43,665 nucleotides of DNA. Source: Candidatus Poribacteria bacterium. GTDB taxonomy: Bacteria > Poribacteria > WGA-4E > WGA-3G. Below the pieces are notes generated by a model. It saw only the letters and a program-made list of their open reading frames with translations. It did not search any database and was not told where the DNA came from. The stretch covers positions 1 through 43,665 of the forward strand of contig JAJEIP010000025.1 in the NCBI GenBank assembly GCA_022827885.1. The letters are read 5' to 3'. Shown in pieces: positions 460-11,470 of this stretch. Every line of letters begins with the position of its first letter. The stretch's first letter is position 1. Position numbers and translations under genes: made by a program.

Positions 460-2013
460 ATGAACAACACGCGTATCATCCACTCGATTTTACTGCTGAT
501 CTTTCTCTGGACTGGCACCGGCATCTGCCAAACATCACCAGATGATACCACTTTCTACGGCACGTGCGTTGATGCCCAAAATGGACACCCTATTCCGGAG
601 GTTCTCGTCCGCGTTGCGCCTGAAAAAATTGAACAGGTCTATCCCGATCAGGAGTTCGCACACGCAACCGTAACGGACACGAATGGCACCTTTTCACTCA
701 CCATCCCCAGCGAAAGCCAAGCCTATCACGCCTTTTCACTCATGGCACTCCACCCACAGTATCAGGCGAAGCGCTTACGAAAGGAAATGCCGCCCGGTAA
801 AAGCGAATATAATTTGGGGATGATTCCGTTGAAGCGGACGCTACCTCTGCAAGGCAGCGTTTCTGGTGAGCAAAGCGTCGGTGGACTTGTTGTGAACCTG
901 AAGATGCACGACAAGTCGGCAGACTTCTTTCGCGCCGCTGCACCGATTGAACACGCTGTGAAGACCGATCCCACCGGCAATTTCCATTTTTCCGAGCTCT
1001 ATCCAATCGAATACACCTTGACAATTTCTCGGAGCGGACGTATCATAGCCTTTATAGAGTCTATTCATCCACAAAAACAGGCACAGATTTCTGTCCGTCT
1101 ATCGCAATTGAAGACCTTACGCGGCACAGTTGTCGATGCGCAAGAACGACCCATAGCGGGCGCACAGATCCACGCAACTCGGCACGCGGAAACATCTCAC
1201 GGGCACGGGGCCCTCCTCTCAGCAGCACAAACAAACGAGGCAGGCAACTTTCAGATGGCGGTCTTAGAGACTGAACCACGACTGCTCTCACTTGAGGTCA
1301 GCAAAAAAGGATACTTTTCGAGGGTATACGAGAATGTAGATCTCGGTACGATGCCGTCAATTCTACCCTTAAAGAAGGGGGTGGGTATTAAAGGACGTGT
1401 GATCCTCCCGCAGAATATACCAGCTGACGGGCAGTATGCTGTGAAGGTGTTTCCTATGGAGGCACGGATGGAGCCAAGCCTGAATCCGTTGGTATTATAC
1501 AGACCGGTTTTGTCAAGACACTTTTCTGCGACAGAATCCGATTTTGTGGTTGGTGGGCTTTTTGCGGAAAAATATACGCTTTATGTCGTTGGAAATGGTA
1601 TTGCAGCGGCTCGAATTGATGTAGATGCCGCAATGAATACCGAACAGGTGCTTGTTGTAGCGGATCAGTCCACAACAACACTGCATGGACAAATTTTCTG
1701 GGCAGATACAGGTGAACCTATCCACGATGCTATCGTTTCGCGTTCATGGTATCCTTGGGAGTTACAGCCCTATGACATGTCAATGACGCTGGATCGGTTT
1801 GAAGTGGAAACGGACGTGCAGGGCAAATTTAAATTCCACAACCTAACACAGGCGCCCTATCAACTCCACATCCGTGCTGTTCATGCGATATTTGAAACAG
1901 AGACGGAACGTTATCAACGGACACTTCTTCACAAACGGGTTGAAATTCCTGCCGCTGGTCCCGAATATCATATCTACATCGGCAGGCGGGACGGCACCCC
2001 CTTTACGCAATGA
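460..2013 (+). CDS. secreted protein with carboxypeptidase-regulatory-like repeats
   Basis: A 517-residue protein. The N-terminus (MNNTRIIHSILLLIFLW...GICQ) is a signal peptide with likely cleavage near residue 24. The mature part holds several beta-sandwich units of the carboxypeptidase regulatory-like type. The best are near residues 32-90 (FYGTCVDAQNGHPIPEVLV, then a TDTNGTF turn), 218-275 (LRGTVVDAQERPIAGAQI, then TNEAGNF) and 407-465 (LHGQIFWADTGEPIHDAIV, then TDVQGKF), with weaker ones between. Such domains usually serve as extracellular structural or binding modules. No catalytic domain is visible. The stop overlaps the start of the next gene by 4 bases (ATGA), so it is probably translationally coupled and the first gene of a five-gene run of secreted proteins. 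The family assignment is good; the role is unknown. Confidence 0.85.
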   Translation: MNNTRIIHSILLLIFLWTGTGICQTSPDDTTFYGTCVDAQNGHPIPEVLVRVAPEKIEQVYPDQEFAHATVTDTNGTFSLTIPSESQAYHAFSLMALHPQYQAKRLRKEMPPGKSEYNLGMIPLKRTLPLQGSVSGEQSVGGLVVNLKMHDKSADFFRAAAPIEHAVKTDPTGNFHFSELYPIEYTLTISRSGRIIAFIESIHPQKQAQISVRLSQLKTLRGTVVDAQERPIAGAQIHATRHAETSHGHGALLSAAQTNEAGNFQMAVLETEPRLLSLEVSKKGYFSRVYENVDLGTMPSILPLKKGVGIKGRVILPQNIPADGQYAVKVFPMEARMEPSLNPLVLYRPVLSRHFSATESDFVVGGLFAEKYTLYVVGNGIAAARIDVDAAMNTEQVLVVADQSTTTLHGQIFWADTGEPIHDAIVSRSWYPWELQPYDMSMTLDRFEVETDVQGKFKFHNLTQAPYQLHIRAVHAIFETETERYQRTLLHKRVEIPAAGPEYHIYIGRRDGTPFTQ

Positions 2014-2771
2014 CACAGAAATATGCCTTTACACTCGCATTAACAGCAATCGTCACTATCCTATTTCTCCTTCTCCCGGCAAATGCTGGCTTGCACGGCG
2101 TGTATAATGATGGGGAGCGGATCATCACTCAGGAGATTGCTGTCCCGAAAGCCGCTGGCGACTACTACCGAAACCCGGGCAAATTCATTGAATCCGAAGA
2201 CGAAAATCGCTGGTTCGGACCGGAAATCGATAGCCGGGTGCTTTGTCATGAGATGACAAACCCCTTTAACGACGCGGGATTCTTTGACATCATCTATACC
2301 AGAGAAGAAGCCAAAGTTTGGCCCTCCTCAAGACCCGGAAAAGTGTGGTGGTATCGGAAACAGGAGTGGCGTTTCGCAACTGACGACACGCCTTGGGGCA
2401 CAAACACCGTCCGCGTCACCCTCGCATCCGAGATCGGTTGGACGGAAATCGACGCTGGGAACAGCACTACCGGGTTTCCTTGGAGCGGGTTCGAGGAGCA
2501 TTGGCGTGAGGGAGACCTCGTAAAATCTAAGGCAGATATAGTCGGCTACTACCCACATGAACACGCTGGCAAAAAATACCTCACACCGAAGTACATCAAA
2601 GTCGGGACGCTGGACTACATCTGTGCGACTGGGACGGGATGGCTTAACCTGAAAGTTCTAAGCCACACCGAGGGACACTTGACAGATCCGATATTTCGTC
2701 CCGAATCTAACCAACTCAGCCGCCGCGAAAAAGGCACAGACAATTGGTACGACTGTCTACCGCTAAAATAG
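2010..2771 (+). CDS. secreted protein of unknown family, module A copy 1
   Basis: A 253-residue protein with a clear signal peptide ending near PANAG (residues 24-28). I do not recognise the family. It is a paralogue of the protein at 3562-4302. Both share a WFGPE motif followed by a Leu-Cys, NP(F/Y)N, a Trp-Tyr-Arg segment, STDDTPWGTN or ATDDTPWGTN, a Gly-Trp-x-Glu-Ile, TTG(F/Y)PWSG, HWR-(E/D)-G, and a C-terminal WYDC. The two shared cysteines (the LC and WYDC positions) could form a disulfide outside the cytoplasm. It starts inside the stop of the previous gene and is followed after 70 bases by module B copy 1. No enzyme motif is visible. Confidence 0.8.
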   Translation: MTQKYAFTLALTAIVTILFLLLPANAGLHGVYNDGERIITQEIAVPKAAGDYYRNPGKFIESEDENRWFGPEIDSRVLCHEMTNPFNDAGFFDIIYTREEAKVWPSSRPGKVWWYRKQEWRFATDDTPWGTNTVRVTLASEIGWTEIDAGNSTTGFPWSGFEEHWREGDLVKSKADIVGYYPHEHAGKKYLTPKYIKVGTLDYICATGTGWLNLKVLSHTEGHLTDPIFRPESNQLSRREKGTDNWYDCLPLK

Positions 2772-2841
2772 TTATTTTCTACTGGTTAAGTTTCTAATCT
2801 CTTGTGAGAGGGATTTGGAACCCCGGATTACGTCGAACCTT

Positions 2842-3534
2842 ATGAAAAACATCGCGCATTTCCTAAATGCACTCATCATTGCTTATACCTTCCTCCTTTT
2901 GCAAGGGAATGTGAATGCCGTTTTTTGGGAAGACCACTTTGAGCAGGAGGCAGTGGACGATTGGCAGCACGTCGGAAACGATGCCGTCTGGACGATCGAA
3001 GATGGATTTTTAAGGGCAGAAATTCAGGCACAGAACCAATGGAGTGTTATCTTTGAACGCTACCAACTCATCGCCTATCCCGGTCCCTATAATGATTTTA
3101 CAATCACCCTTGAAACCGTCGGCGCAACACGCGCCCGATTCGGTATTGCACTCGCAAAGCACTTTCAGAATCCTGTGACCGAAATAGAGGAATTCGGCTA
3201 CTATCTCTTTTTCACGAACGATATGCAAGCCTCACGAAACGGGGGTGTGTTTATCGGACCCGGACGACGCTGGGCCACCGACGCACTCCAACAGATGGAA
3301 CTCCACTTCAAGGATGGCAGATTCCAATTGAATGCGGATGGCGAATCGCGCCTCGACTTCAGGGACGCAAACTTCCATCACATTGATACCATTGCCTTTG
3401 TTCTCGCTGGATTTGTCACAGAAGACGTTAACATAGGGAGCGCGTGGGTAGACACATTTATGATTGACGGACTCGCAGTTTCACCAAAACGGAAATTAAC
3501 AACCACATGGGCACATCTGAAAACTGAAAACTGA
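2842..3534 (+). CDS. secreted jelly-roll-like protein, module B copy 1
   Basis: A 230-residue protein. The chosen start at 2842 (MKNIAHFLNALIIAY) opens directly into a signal peptide; an in-frame upstream ATG at 2815 would put a polar tail before it. The mature part begins WEDHFEQEAVDDWQ and continues with VGNDAVWTIEDGFLRAE, a pattern typical of concanavalin-like/LamG-type or DUF1080-like beta-sandwich domains that bind glycans or act outside the cell. It is a clear paralogue of 4307-5008: shared (D/E)DHF or DDF start, VGNDA(V/I)W, GFL(R/H)AE, a TRFG segment, and a C-terminal AW(V/A)D(T/S)F-I-GL-VSP. It sits between A1 and A2, with 27 bases of a (CTGAAAA) type repeat before A2. The fold is inferred; no substrate is suggested. 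Confidence 0.8.
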   Translation: MKNIAHFLNALIIAYTFLLLQGNVNAVFWEDHFEQEAVDDWQHVGNDAVWTIEDGFLRAEIQAQNQWSVIFERYQLIAYPGPYNDFTITLETVGATRARFGIALAKHFQNPVTEIEEFGYYLFFTNDMQASRNGGVFIGPGRRWATDALQQMELHFKDGRFQLNADGESRLDFRDANFHHIDTIAFVLAGFVTEDVNIGSAWVDTFMIDGLAVSPKRKLTTTWAHLKTEN

Positions 3535-3561
3535 AAACCGACAACTGAAAACTATCAAAAA

Positions 3562-4302
3562 ATGTATAAAAATTTGGATCTGATTTTCAATGCATTTCTA
3601 CTCGGAGTGGTGCTCCTCATCGCGTTTTGGAGCACCTACGCCAGAGCAAGATTGAACCCTGGGGAGCGGGCACAACCCGCGAATTCAGGATTCTATTACA
3701 GAACCCCGGGATCAAACGGCACGTGGTTCGGACCTGAAGTCAACTCGCTGACCCTCTGCGCCGGTGTTCACAACCCCTATAACAATAGAGGACGGTTCGA
3801 TATCGTAGAAACCATCGAAAATGCAACAGTTTCCCGTTCAAGCATCCGAGGCGCGCTCCGTTGGTATCGTGGACAGCGGTGGTATTTCAGCACGGACGAT
3901 ACGCCGTGGGGTACGAACTTCTCCTATATTACGCTCCATGACGATTTAGGATGGGATGAAATTAGTGTAGGCGGCGGAACAACCGGCTATCCGTGGAGCG
4001 GTGTCGAACGACACTGGCGGGACGGGAACATTATCCGAGCGCAAGCCTCCGTTATCGGTTGGCGGCGGTATGCCCGCGGCGCGGAACGATGGGTCTGCCC
4101 GATGTATTACAAAATCGGCGGATGGGAGGGTGAAACCATTGAAGTCGACTGCAAAACCCTCAGAACGTGGTTCCCGCCTGATTGGAACGTCCTGAGACAG
4201 AGGGATGGAGACTTCGGACCCCCAGTCGAACGCAAACCTGGGGTCCTCAGCCGAAAAGGAAAGAAAACGCAGCAGTGGTACGACTGCATCAAAATCAATT
4301 AA
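3562..4302 (+). CDS. secreted protein of unknown family, module A copy 2
   Basis: A 246-residue protein with a signal peptide (MYKNLDLIFNAFLLGVVLLI, likely cut after YARA). It is the second copy of the A protein seen at 2010-2771. It keeps the WFGPEVNSLTLC, STDDTPWGTN, TTGYPWSGVERHWRDG and QQWYDC motifs in the same order and spacing, but differs in the region after the HWR motif, where A2 has extra cysteines (WVCPMYYK, VDCKTL). There is no clear Shine-Dalgarno; the upstream 30 bases are AACTGAAAA-type repeat. The gene is followed 4 bases later by the B2 start. Function unknown. Confidence 0.8.
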   Translation: MYKNLDLIFNAFLLGVVLLIAFWSTYARARLNPGERAQPANSGFYYRTPGSNGTWFGPEVNSLTLCAGVHNPYNNRGRFDIVETIENATVSRSSIRGALRWYRGQRWYFSTDDTPWGTNFSYITLHDDLGWDEISVGGGTTGYPWSGVERHWRDGNIIRAQASVIGWRRYARGAERWVCPMYYKIGGWEGETIEVDCKTLRTWFPPDWNVLRQRDGDFGPPVERKPGVLSRKGKKTQQWYDCIKIN

Positions 4303-4306
4303 TCCC

Positions 4307-5008
4307 ATGTCAAACAAAAACACAACACGCCTCATACTTTTTTATACATTTATGATCTGCACCCTTTCCGCCTCCGCCGCAACGTGGCACGACGATTTCG
4401 ATGCGGAAAAGCCGGAGGCGTGGCACGTCATCGGCAACGATGCCATCTGGAAAATCAGCGATGGATTCTTACACGCAGAGGTCAACCGAGACTGGAATGT
4501 GCAATACGAACTCTACCAATTCACCGCGCTCCCACCCCCTTATAGGAACTTCACAATCACGATAAACGACTTCGGTGGCGACAAAACACGTTTCGGTTTT
4601 TGTGTAGGACGGCATTTTCCAGACACCTCGGAAGAGGATCCCTTCTTCTACGTGTTTTTCCCAGATGAAATCAGAGCGAGGCGTTTCGACGGTAAAGGGA
4701 GCAGCCATCCCTTCCGAACTCGGCTCTCCAGAGAACCACGCACCCGCTGGGAAACGGATGCGCTCTCAAAGATGGAACTCCAATTTAATGCCGGGCATTT
4801 TATAGTGTTCGCAGATGGCGAACTCCGCACAGCCTTCCAAGACGCGAACTTCGATAAGATCGAAATTCTCGGATTCGTTATGGAAGGCATTAACATCGCA
4901 AACGAATGGGTCGGCGCGGCGTGGGCGGATTCCTTCACCATCTCCGGACTGAATGTCTCTCCAGAGATAAGATTAACCCTAATATGGGGGCGACTTAAGC
5001 AGAGATAA
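4307..5008 (+). CDS. secreted jelly-roll-like protein, module B copy 2
   Basis: A 233-residue protein. The start at 4307 (MSNKNTTRLILFYTFMIC) begins the signal peptide (cut near ASAA) and lies 4 bases after the A2 stop; the longer in-frame extension from 4205 lies inside A2 and would precede the signal peptide with polar residues, so I rejected it. The mature part (WHDDFDAEKPEAWHVIGNDA) is paralogous to B1 at 2842-3534 along its length, including KMELQFNAGHF against QMELHFKDGRF and NVSPEIRLT against AVSPKRKLT. As with B1, a glycan-binding or lectin-like beta-sandwich is the likeliest fold. It is the last gene of the secreted-protein run. Confidence 0.8.
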   Translation: MSNKNTTRLILFYTFMICTLSASAATWHDDFDAEKPEAWHVIGNDAIWKISDGFLHAEVNRDWNVQYELYQFTALPPPYRNFTITINDFGGDKTRFGFCVGRHFPDTSEEDPFFYVFFPDEIRARRFDGKGSSHPFRTRLSREPRTRWETDALSKMELQFNAGHFIVFADGELRTAFQDANFDKIEILGFVMEGINIANEWVGAAWADSFTISGLNVSPEIRLTLIWGRLKQR

Positions 5009-6170: not shown

Positions 6171-6210
6171 AATGTTTGGTGGTAAACAACAATTGAAAGG
6201 ATCTCAGATC

Positions 6211-7049
6211 ATGAATCTAAAACAAATCGCATTCATTTTTGTTTTTGCTATTCTATGGCTCTGTAGTATACAGCGTATCCCTTCTGCAGACGATGCCCCC
6301 GCTGGTATGGTTCTGATTCCCGCAGGCGAATTTGAGATGGGGAGTCACACTGGGAAAAATAATGAACGTCCGGTGCATACCGTCTATCTCGATGCGTTTT
6401 ATATGGACACTCACGAGGTGACCAACGCACAATATAAGGCGTTCATCAACGCAAATCCTGAATGGCAAAAAGAGAACATTGCGGCGGAGTATCACGACGG
6501 TACATACCTCCGACTTTGGGACGGCAACACGTATCCCGAGGGCAAGGCTGACCATCCCGTCATTTACGTAAGTTGGTATGCAGCGATGGCTTACGCGGAA
6601 TGGGCGGGAAAACGATTGCCGACAGAGGCGGAATGGGAGAAAGCGGCGCGCGGTGGACTGCGCGCGAAAGCGTATCCTTGGGGTGATACGTATGAGGCAA
6701 CCCACGCAAACTACGGACGGCACCACAACGCTCCTATCGCTGTCGGGCAGTACCCACCCAACGGCTACGGTCTATACGATATGGCAGGAAATGCCTCCGA
6801 GTGGTGTCTTGATGAATACGATCCGGATTTCTACGCGATATCCCCGCGTGAAAACCCATTCTCAAACGGGACGATCGAAGCGACTATCAATGATTTCAAA
6901 ACGTGAAAGACAAAAACCGAGTGCTGCGGGGAGGTTGCTGGAGCGATAATGGATTATTTTTGCGAGTTGCTTTCCGTGACTGGGGACCCCAGCACTACTC
7001 CAGTGTCTTCCGCGGGTTTCGGTGCGTAAAGGACATTCCACTTAAGTAG
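6211..7049 (+). pseudogene. SUMF1/FGE-like domain lipoprotein-style secreted protein, frameshifted near its C-terminus
   Basis: From the start at 6211 (MNLKQIAFIFVFAILWLC, signal peptide; AAAGGA upstream) the protein shows the SUMF1 pattern: GMVLIPAGEFEMGS, VYLDAFYMDTHEVTNAQYKA, HPVIYVSWYAAMAYAEWAGK, RLPTEAEWEKAARGG, YPWGD and YGLYDMAGNASEWCLDEY. The frame stops at 6904-6906, but the missing family ending (NRVLRGGCW, then LRVAFRD, then FRGFRCVK) is present in the -1 frame to TAG at 7047-7049. One extra A in CAAAAC (6897-6902) would restore a protein of about 279 residues. The C-terminal motif lacks the paired cysteines of true formylglycine-generating enzymes, so even when intact it is probably a structural SUMF1 protein and not the activator of the sulfatase at 32657. 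It could be a sequencing error. Confidence 0.8.
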
Positions 7050-7154: not shown

Positions 7155-8318
7155 ATGAATATAAGAAGAATTATAACATCTGCGTTTTTATTCACAATTC
7201 TTACTGTCGGACTTTTCGGTTGCGATAAGGTCATCTCCGTAGTATCTGATGACGAAATGTCACGGGGTGTGCGTGAAGAGATTCCCATCGGTGTTGTCGT
7301 AGCGCTGACAGGACATCATGCCGAACCGTATGGGTTCCCAATGCAACGCGGCTTTGAGTTGGCACGAGAAGAGATTAACAACCTCGGCGATCTAAATCTC
7401 ACGTTTATTACTGTGGACGATATGAGCACCCCGGATGGGGCGAAGGCAGCTGTAAGGCACTTGGTGGATCAAGGTGTCCCTGCTATTGTTGGGCTTGCTA
7501 TCTCGACGCACCTTAAAGAGGCGGCTCCAATTGCGCAGGAGAATAAGGTCATCGCTTTCAGCTCGGTCTCCTCCGCTGTAGGTTTGAGCGCGATCGGGGG
7601 TTTTATCTTCCGAACCAGTCTCGCTGTGGATATAAGCGTTCCCAGTGGGGTGATGGCGACCCAGGAGAGACTCGGCTATAAAAAGGTGGCAACGATATAT
7701 GATGAGATTGATGTCTACTCCAGAAGTAGCAACGAAATGTTAAGGACAGTGCTTGAAGCAAACGGGGTCGAGATTCTAACGCAGGAAGTTTTCAAAACCG
7801 GCGATACCGATTTTTCTCAGCAATTAACCAATATCATGGCGATGGAGCCGGACGCACTCTTTATCTCCGCACTGTCACAAGAAATAGCGGGGATTCTCGC
7901 ACAAACACCCGAGGTAGGTTTTCCCGACACGATTCAAATTATTGCTCCGGATTTAACCATGGATGAAGTCCAAAAGGCAGGTGACGGTGCCGAAGGAACA
8001 ATAGGTTTTATCGGATGGTCCAGTATATCTGACGCACCCGGAAACCAAGCCTTCGTTCGGAATTATCGAGCGAAATACGGGATTGAACCTGAACCCTGGG
8101 CGGCACAGTCGTATGCGACGCTTTATGTGCTCGCCAATGCAATGAAAACAGCGAAATCCACAGATTCGACCGCCATTCGGGACGCACTCGCACAGACGAC
8201 GGATTTTCCCACAATTTTGGGCAAATTAGGCAATTACGCTTTTAATCCTGACGGAGATGCACTGTATGACCAGATTCTAATGATCGTCAAGGATGGAGAA
8301 CTTCAGTTCTTTGAATGA
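7155..8318 (+). CDS. ABC transporter substrate-binding lipoprotein, LIV-BP (Peripla_BP_6) type
   Basis: A 387-residue protein with a lipoprotein signal peptide whose lipobox is LFGC (Cys near residue 23), so the mature protein should be membrane-anchored. The body starts IPIGVVVALTGHHAEPYGFP, continues with RGFELAREEINNLG, then AIVGLAISTHLKEAAPIA, a VATIYDEIDVYSRSSNEM hinge segment, ILTQEVFKTGDTDFSQQL, and WAAQSYATLYVLANAM. This is the standard order of leucine/isoleucine/valine-binding-protein-like receptors, which deliver branched amino acids, amides or other small ligands. No permease or ATPase is next to it, so partner and ligand are open. A good Shine-Dalgarno (AAAGGA near 7141) precedes the ATG. 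Confidence 0.9.
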   Translation: MNIRRIITSAFLFTILTVGLFGCDKVISVVSDDEMSRGVREEIPIGVVVALTGHHAEPYGFPMQRGFELAREEINNLGDLNLTFITVDDMSTPDGAKAAVRHLVDQGVPAIVGLAISTHLKEAAPIAQENKVIAFSSVSSAVGLSAIGGFIFRTSLAVDISVPSGVMATQERLGYKKVATIYDEIDVYSRSSNEMLRTVLEANGVEILTQEVFKTGDTDFSQQLTNIMAMEPDALFISALSQEIAGILAQTPEVGFPDTIQIIAPDLTMDEVQKAGDGAEGTIGFIGWSSISDAPGNQAFVRNYRAKYGIEPEPWAAQSYATLYVLANAMKTAKSTDSTAIRDALAQTTDFPTILGKLGNYAFNPDGDALYDQILMIVKDGELQFFE

Positions 8319-8377: not shown

Positions 8378-8629
8378 TTACTTTATTCGCCTCTCGTACG
8401 CGTCATGTTTTCCAATCCAAAACCAAGATAAACCCTCTTCGTCCTCAGTCGCCAATGCTCGATAGTTCAATCCAACTCTTGCCACCCAGTACTCGCCTAC
8501 CTTTTTTAAGCCAAGAGATGGGTGATTTGGATCTCGCTTGAGTAGTTCAAAATTTTTGTTTGCGAGTTCTTGAATAGTTGATGGAAGGTTGTGATAATAC
8601 TCCCAAAACTTAGAGGTCGCTTTATAGAT
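8378..8629 (-). CDS. RelE/ParE-like toxin (probable ATC start)
   Basis: This reading frame encodes a small basic protein with YKATSKFWEYYHNLP, LANKNFELLKRDPNHPSL, KKVGEYWVARVGLNYRALA and a C-terminal FWIGKHDAYERRI. This is the RelE/ParE fold pattern of mRNA-cleaving or gyrase-targeting toxins. The start is doubtful. A TTG at 8683 would give 101 residues and a 62-base overlap with the upstream gene but has no good ribosome site. An ideal GGGGAGG lies seven bases before an ATC codon at 8629, where the family's usual N-terminus (IYKATSKFW) begins; that gives 83 residues, the normal length. I annotate the ATC start as the better inference. It overlaps the antitoxin stop by 8 bases, fitting coupled translation. 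Confidence 0.7.
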   Translation of the reverse strand: MYKATSKFWEYYHNLPSTIQELANKNFELLKRDPNHPSLGLKKVGEYWVARVGLNYRALATEDEEGLSWFWIGKHDAYERRIK

Positions 8630-8987
8630 CGGTGAACCTCCCCGCTTTAATATCCTCAAGGGCTTCTTTGCGAAGATGTTCAAGTTTCCCGGCTTTTATA
8701 TCTTCTTCGATCTGCTTGTCCCAAGCATCCGCACGAGCCTCTAAAACTTCAGAAAGTTTGTCTTTCAGTGTTGTCAATAAAGTTTCTTTCGTGGTTTCTT
8801 CACATGTATCAACTTCTGGCACCTCAGGAATCCATCCACACCATCTATCCAATTTTTTTCTTACAGAAGCGGTATAGGCTTCTCCCCATTCTGGATCCGT
8901 AATTTCAAAAGTTAGGATGTGTTTGTTCTTGACTTGTTGTTCTGGTACTACTTTTTCAGTGGGCTGTTCGGTGATAACGCGTCCCAT
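8622..8987 (-). CDS. probable antitoxin partner of the RelE/ParE-like toxin
   Basis: A 121-residue, acidic and largely helical protein with a perfect AGGAGG nine to ten bases before its ATG. The N-terminal part (HILTFEITDPEWGEAYTASV) is followed by a coiled stretch with TLKDKLSEVLEARADAWDKQ and IKAGKLEHLRKEALEDIKAG. I do not recognise a named antitoxin family and see no ribbon-helix-helix, HTH or AbrB DNA-binding segment. The antitoxin role is inferred from its place directly before, and overlapping, the toxin gene. If it lacks DNA binding, operon autoregulation would have to work another way. Confidence 0.6.
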   Translation of the reverse strand: MGRVITEQPTEKVVPEQQVKNKHILTFEITDPEWGEAYTASVRKKLDRWCGWIPEVPEVDTCEETTKETLLTTLKDKLSEVLEARADAWDKQIEEDIKAGKLEHLRKEALEDIKAGRFTDL

Positions 8988-10753: not shown

Positions 10754-11470
10754 ATGTCCAAACGCACAATCCTCACAACCATCGTTATCCCTACACTGCT
10801 GATCTCTGGACTTATTGTTTTTCTCATCAACAACCGACAGGAACCCGCAGCCGAACTCGTCCTAACGCAGCAACAAATTCACTTCGGAACGCTCCCAGAA
10901 TGGGAGGGACCCGTAACACAATCCCTAACAGCCCGAAACGTCGGAAAATTCCCACTCCACATCCACAGAATTCACACCGGGTGCAGTTACGCCGAAATCA
11001 CAGCACCGGAGATAATCCAACCCAATACAGAAGCCACATTCCAGATACGCCTCACCCCCGAACTTCTGCCCGATGACGAGACCTCGGCAACCGCCACAAT
11101 CTTCACGGACAGCCCCAAAACCCCAGTTGTCCATCTAACAATCGTCGCCGCCGCGAAACGGTTTGCGACCCTCACACCAAGTATTTGTAAGTTTGGGAAG
11201 GTCCGCCCCGAAACGATATATCAAGAGACCCTTAAACTCACTGTGAACGCCCCACTCAACACATCGGACATCCGTCTTCTGCCATCGGGACATGAGGCAC
11301 TCACATGGGAGATAATACCCAATCTGGAAACAGATACCGCTCTCATTAGCATCCAACTCAGTCCCCTGAAAGACGGGGGTGCCTTTGCATCGCTACTCAC
11401 CGTCCACTTCCCGAACCAACGAACACTGACCCTCCCCGTCACCGCCAATGTTGTCCGCATTGACAACTGA
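10754..11470 (+). CDS. DUF1573-like membrane-anchored Ig-fold protein
   Basis: A 238-residue protein. Residues 5-25 form a signal anchor (ILTTIVIPTLLISGLIVFL). The rest carries two Ig-like beta-sandwich units: the first with IHFGTLPEWEG, LTARNVGKFPLHIHRI and the characteristic TGCSY Cys, followed by PNTEATFQIRL; the second from about residue 135 with CKFGKVRPETIYQETLKLTV. The order fits DUF1573 proteins, which are periplasmic or surface-exposed and poorly characterised. There is no enzyme motif. It stands alone after a 1.1 kb gene-poor region and is followed by a promoter at 11485. Confidence 0.75.
   Translation: MSKRTILTTIVIPTLLISGLIVFLINNRQEPAAELVLTQQQIHFGTLPEWEGPVTQSLTARNVGKFPLHIHRIHTGCSYAEITAPEIIQPNTEATFQIRLTPELLPDDETSATATIFTDSPKTPVVHLTIVAAAKRFATLTPSICKFGKVRPETIYQETLKLTVNAPLNTSDIRLLPSGHEALTWEIIPNLETDTALISIQLSPLKDGGAFASLLTVHFPNQRTLTLPVTANVVRIDN

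Follow-up and report, generated by a model that had tools for sequence, protein, structure and literature searches.

On the plus strand of a 43,665-nucleotide stretch of Candidatus Poribacteria DNA (the window), we found that two genes for unrelated secreted proteins, A and B, stand twice in tandem behind a gene for a repeat protein, R, and that the duplication behind this arrangement is old. Our preferred reading, held tentatively and at somewhat below an even chance, is that an ancient A-B duplication took place within a secreted R-A-B unit whose products form a complex, with B as the glycan-binding member, R as the frame and A as a partner. This reading draws on export signals recognized in the sequence, on homology, on the order and co-occurrence of the genes, on purifying selection and on the order of the duplications; the fold of B is modelled, while complex formation, the glycan ligand, a disulfide and a location at the cell surface or in the periplasm are what we infer from these data.

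Poribacteria are a widespread, uncultured phylum best known as sponge symbionts, and we know of no described mechanism by which they contact the matrix of the host. The R-A-B unit (56 of 58 genomes of family f1) is a concrete and testable candidate for contact with host or glycan. It combines an undescribed family (A), which may have a new fold, with a lectin-like family (B) and a repeat protein (R). As a whole, R-A-B resembles an undescribed cell-surface module, and B looks like a sugar-binding lectin.

A tandem A-B duplication in a likely five-gene operon

The first gene of the unit, R (460-2013), encodes a protein that is predicted to be exported and that carries several CarboxypepD_reg-type beta-sandwich repeats. 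It is followed on the same plus strand by A1 (2010-2771), whose product begins with a signal-peptide-like N-terminus, by B1 (2815-3534; probable start ATG 2842), a family B protein with a putative signal peptide and a concanavalin-like jelly roll, and by A2 (3562-4302) and B2 (4307-5008), the second copies of the two families. The longest open reading frame of B2 begins at 4205, inside A2, and alignments with orthologues begin at 4307. R and A1 overlap by 4 bases (ATGA) and the later gaps are 43, 27 and 4 bases; given this overlap and these short gaps, the genes from R to B2 are likely to form one operon. A terminator-like hairpin (269-284) sits between this operon and two upstream tRNA genes.

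A hydrophobic, export-signal-like N-terminal segment was seen in all five proteins (5/5), as read from the sequence and not from a signal-peptide predictor. The original prediction that A and B are secreted agrees with such N-termini in all four of their products.

The A1 and A2 proteins are 39% identical over 253 aa (BLASTP, E 6e-59), and B1 and B2 are 41% identical over 227 aa (E 2e-60); judged from these alignments, both similarities are much too strong to be due to chance. Between the A1-B1 and A2-B2 copies, no direct DNA repeat of at least 20 bases remains, which argues that the duplication is old. The A1-B1-A2-B2 tandem (2010-5008, plus strand) that had been predicted is real. A search of the whole source genome found no A genes other than these two. 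Among close pairs, dN/dS was 0.05-0.09 for A2, the most conserved member of the unit, 0.10-0.24 for B1 and B2, 0.11-0.35 for A1 and 0.18-0.35 for R. Purifying selection holds all five genes, A2 most strongly.

With 97.9 bits against Pfam PF13620 (CarboxypepD_reg; cut-off 32.3) in four stretches, R is a clear member of that family by its profile score. The gene at 460 had been labelled a regulatory-repeat protein, which is an artefact of the family name, since CarboxypepD_reg is a small beta-sandwich domain and not a regulator. R differs from other CarboxypepD_reg repeat proteins in that it has neither a peptidase nor a TonB-dependent barrel and is tied to A and B.

R, A and B occur together in one Poribacteria family

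The closest relatives by protein were all Candidatus Poribacteria metagenome-assembled genomes. A is present in 56 of the 58 genomes of f1 and, among 26 further genomes of the phylum that were searched, only in G072, which belongs to another family. A same-strand B lay at most 306 bases (median 26) from every one of the 45 A genes examined, so that A adjoins B in each examined genome that holds A, as had been proposed. R lay within 6 kb on the same DNA piece for 41 of these 45 genes; these co-occurrence counts are inflated by close linkage among related genomes. The other four A genes comprise one locus cut by the contig end (L033), two in G072, where A, B and R share one contig with R further off, and one in G051, an incomplete genome in which R was not found.

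The order R-(A1)-B1-A2-B2 was seen in every fully readable locus of the family, and R lay upstream of the A and B genes in every locus uncut by a contig end, G051 excepted. Two f1 genomes (G015 and G019) are missing A, B and R all together. This joint absence and the conserved upstream position support the claim that the CarboxypepD_reg protein at 460 is part of the unit. The scanned loci held no single-ORF fusion of A, B and R that could serve as evidence of contact. Within Poribacteria, sponge-associated Entoporibacteria and free-living Pelagiporibacteria have been distinguished (PMC8546597); that R-A-B might be confined to sponge-associated lineages is a lead, not a result.

We also noted a gene pair that in genus g3 is inserted after R and before B1 (L053 6451-7285, L056 6358-7293, L052 5422-7285). 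In L053 and L056 the second protein resembles, by eye, a PIN-domain (VapC-like) toxin, and the first could be an antitoxin.

The A-B pair was probably copied once, and A1 is missing from many genomes

The B tree was built quickly and has long branches. In it the B1 and B2 sequences separate into two clades (support 99 and 100), and since all three genera of the family are represented in either clade, the B split predates these genera. For family A, the tree joins an A1 clade (100/100) as sister to the clade of all A2 (99/99), which places the A1/A2 split, on the phylogeny, before the separation of the family's genera. The distant clusters had branched off before either split, with support of 97 for B and of only 92/75 for A, the value on which the sistership of A1 and A2 relative to those clusters depends. 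The A and B duplications occupy matching intervals of their trees, as a single copying of the unit predicts, and the original prediction of such a copying gains from this. A and B were probably copied together in one event, since a single A-B duplication is the simplest account of the two trees. A recent duplication is ruled out by the absent DNA repeat together with splits older than the family's genera. A late origin of A1 among the A2 genes of the source genus was rejected (p-AU 0.002), although the A1 branch is long, which calls for some caution.

The further claim, that both genes of the pair were then retained together, was not supported. A1 was found in 23 of 38 genomes of the source genus, always placed R-A1-B1; it was not found in the other 15 (of which 3 are incomplete at the locus or have no locus) or in any genome of genera g2 and g3, and B1, A2 and B2 stay. 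This distribution argues that in many lineages B1 has lasted longer than the A1 beside it. A1 thus appears dispensable and B1 persistent, with R-B1-A2-B2 as the stable core.

We considered that A and B might instead have duplicated separately, and that A1 came later, by transfer from an unsampled lineage into some members of the genus, where it landed between R and B1. This alternative is live because the presence of A1 on the A2 tree needs only two changes, and it would also fit the lack of A1 in g2 and g3 and of any A1 fossil between R and B1 in loci without A1. In contrast, the position of A1 is constant, the neighboring B1 is vertically inherited, and the A and B splits are both bracketed by the departure of the distant clusters on the older side and the divergence of the family's genera on the younger. 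We regard a later transfer as unlikely, if a serious contender, and keep the single copying of the A-B pair as our preferred account.

B resembles concanavalin-like carbohydrate-binding modules

An AF2 model of B, built from 41 sequences (mean pLDDT 76), is a jelly roll with the two sheets of the concanavalin A-like lectin/glucanase fold. Foldseek matched the model to 175 PDB chains at E <= 0.001, among them GH43 accessory domains, GH16 laminarinases and CBM66. By VIA-align, the model gave Z 12.4 to CBM66 (4b1m_C; rmsd 2.6, 136 aligned) and Z 12.5 to GH43A (5jox_A; rmsd 3.3, 157 aligned). The model therefore upholds the description of B as jelly-roll-like, with Z of up to 12.5 to CBM66 and GH43 modules, and as modelled, B is a member of a known fold. 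We liken B to CBM66, which binds terminal fructosides via a defined site, by similarity of fold only. B shares the overall jelly roll of the CBM66 and GH43 C-terminal concanavalin-like beta-sandwich modules, but identity is only about 10-13%, and B is a free-standing small exported protein that is not joined to a glycoside hydrolase.

The concanavalin-like fold also serves enzymes and structural proteins, and we weighed whether B could be a glycan-cleaving jelly-roll enzyme, of the PF06439 kind or another, with R and A as accessories of a unit that degrades glycan rather than binds it. PF06439, the 3-keto-disaccharide hydrolase domain (formerly DUF1080), was reached weakly by 12 of 41 B proteins (best E 1.1e-4), and the fold matches of the model include 4jqt (BT3469, annotated as a putative glycosyl hydrolase; Z 12.0). 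However, B1 and B2 of the source had no match in Pfam, PF06439 included, and the scores of two relatives (12.7 bits in L054 and 17.7 bits in L081) fall under the gathering cut-off of 26.8 bits, so that none of these B proteins reaches this family by profile score. We consider an enzymatic B improbable, and continue to read B as the glycan-binding member.

The R-A-B unit is like the polysaccharide utilization loci of Bacteroidetes, which include glycan-binding surface proteins, in being an operon of several exported glycan-binding-like proteins; it differs from them in having no SusC/SusD pair and no glycoside hydrolase inside. A few relatives (for example G070) have B-like genes but no A, which makes B a wider family than A. 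In one relative (L084 in G040:C68, 5067-11152), B has been amplified locally, with six B genes, one of them partly masked by N, around a single A gene.

Family A appears undescribed and may have a new fold

Family A had no match above cut-off in Pfam, no match at all in NCBIfam or PHROGs, and none among PDB sequences up to E 10; no relatives among viruses or plasmids were found. The suggestion that A is undescribed stands, with nothing convincing in these libraries, and we found no published description of family A or of the R-A-B unit in the open literature searched. Both the family and the unit appear undescribed in the libraries and literature covered. That A is a metallopeptidase was rejected, since its Zincin_1 matches (E 0.045-0.081) reached 13.3 bits where 22.4 are required, as was an anti-phage defence role for the unit (0/5 proteins match PADLOC).

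An AF2 model of A (mean pLDDT 78, moderate confidence) has an N-terminal helix followed by a beta-rich part. Its best structural matches reached Foldseek E 0.12 and Z 2.5, and the best match of this moderately confident model in a viral structure library had E 0.013 and TM 0.09, so that there was no confident fold match in the PDB or viral libraries. A may have a new fold, although the absence of a match for a model of moderate confidence is no proof of one.

Three cysteines are conserved in A (66, 197 and 242 in A2; 79, 205 and 249 in A1). The A protein of one relative (L083) has lost both C66 and C197 (A2 numbering) and kept C242. We counted this co-loss in favor of a disulfide-stabilized A; as a single case in one sequence, it is weak evidence for a C66-C197 disulfide.

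Rhodanese, MauE, DUF1573 and glycosyltransferase genes near related units

Directly behind B2, the g2 and g3 loci have genes for a rhodanese and for MauE, and a DUF1573 gene is sometimes nearby. All three occur together with A, B and R in the distant cluster L082 (G055) and in L091 (G072). A MauE homologue was found in none of 37 genomes of the source genus searched (0/37), and the rhodaneses of the source genome are distant ones only. The window itself holds a DUF1573 gene (10754-11470, plus strand; PF07610, 35.3 bits against a cut-off of 26.1), about 5.7 kb away from the unit and 54.8% identical to the L082 copy; in several sister genera, and likewise in the relative outside the family, a homologue lies within the unit or immediately behind it. 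The rhodanese and DUF1573 proteins each contain an invariant cysteine, and predicted selenoprotein families include both DUF1573 and rhodanese-like proteins (PMC9312934).

These neighbors could point to an envelope sulfur or redox system, in which the cysteines of A are substrate or carrier of a rhodanese-MauE-DUF1573 thiol relay and B and R hold A. The position of rhodanese and MauE directly after B2, their presence in the G072 cluster and the invariant cysteines would suit such a relay. However, the source genus lacks MauE (0/37 genomes) and the source genome has only distant rhodaneses, yet A is under strong purifying selection; only one of the three cysteines is left in the A protein of L083; and rhodanese and MauE may simply help to fold A. 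We think a redox system quite improbable, and return to the secreted complex with a glycan-binding B.

An STT3-type glycosyltransferase of 920-960 residues was found in four distant clusters (L082, L083, L088 and L091), and we counted its position beside them in favor of this complex. These include the putative oligosaccharyl transferases of L082 (11970-14843, minus strand), which matches PF02516 at E 3.1e-15, and of L091 (6559-9321, plus strand), with only a weak core-domain match. We found no STT3-type gene in the source genome; relatives of this protein are numerous in many genomes of the family (28 matches in G011).

A proposed glycan-binding surface complex

For A and B the original prediction had offered an adhesin or glycan-binding role and for R a scaffold role, and we infer the same. 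In the mechanism that we propose, all products of the R-A-B unit would be exported. B would most likely be a lectin-type domain that binds glycan on a face of its modelled jelly roll, and R, with its small beta-sandwich domains in a row, would most likely form an extended stalk or scaffold. A, as a disulfide-stabilized, beta-rich partner, would complete the complex and could give it its specificity. Heteromeric or multi-specific binding could come from the divergence between A1 and A2, between B1 and B2, and among the B genes, of which one relative has as many as six. A bolder version, which we think has little chance of being right in full, is that R-A-B forms, in one Poribacteria family, an undescribed surface complex in which A has a new fold and B is a lectin; this complex would hold or feed on the glycans of the sponge matrix and would once have had its own thiol-redox maturation genes and STT3-type glycosyltransferase.

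Genes downstream of the unit

EamA, FGE-sulfatase and periplasmic binding protein genes were ruled out as members of the unit, as they are not constant neighbors. The FGE-sulfatase-domain gene (6172-6906) matches profile positions 3-206 of 255, and its end may be truncated or frameshifted. A periplasmic binding protein of the branched-chain amino acid type is encoded at 7155-8318; its homologue adjoins the unit in opposite orientation in many relatives, which suggests that the downstream flank has been rearranged. Two small overlapping genes further on (8378-8683 and 8622-8987, minus strand) resemble, by eye, a RelE-type toxin-antitoxin pair.
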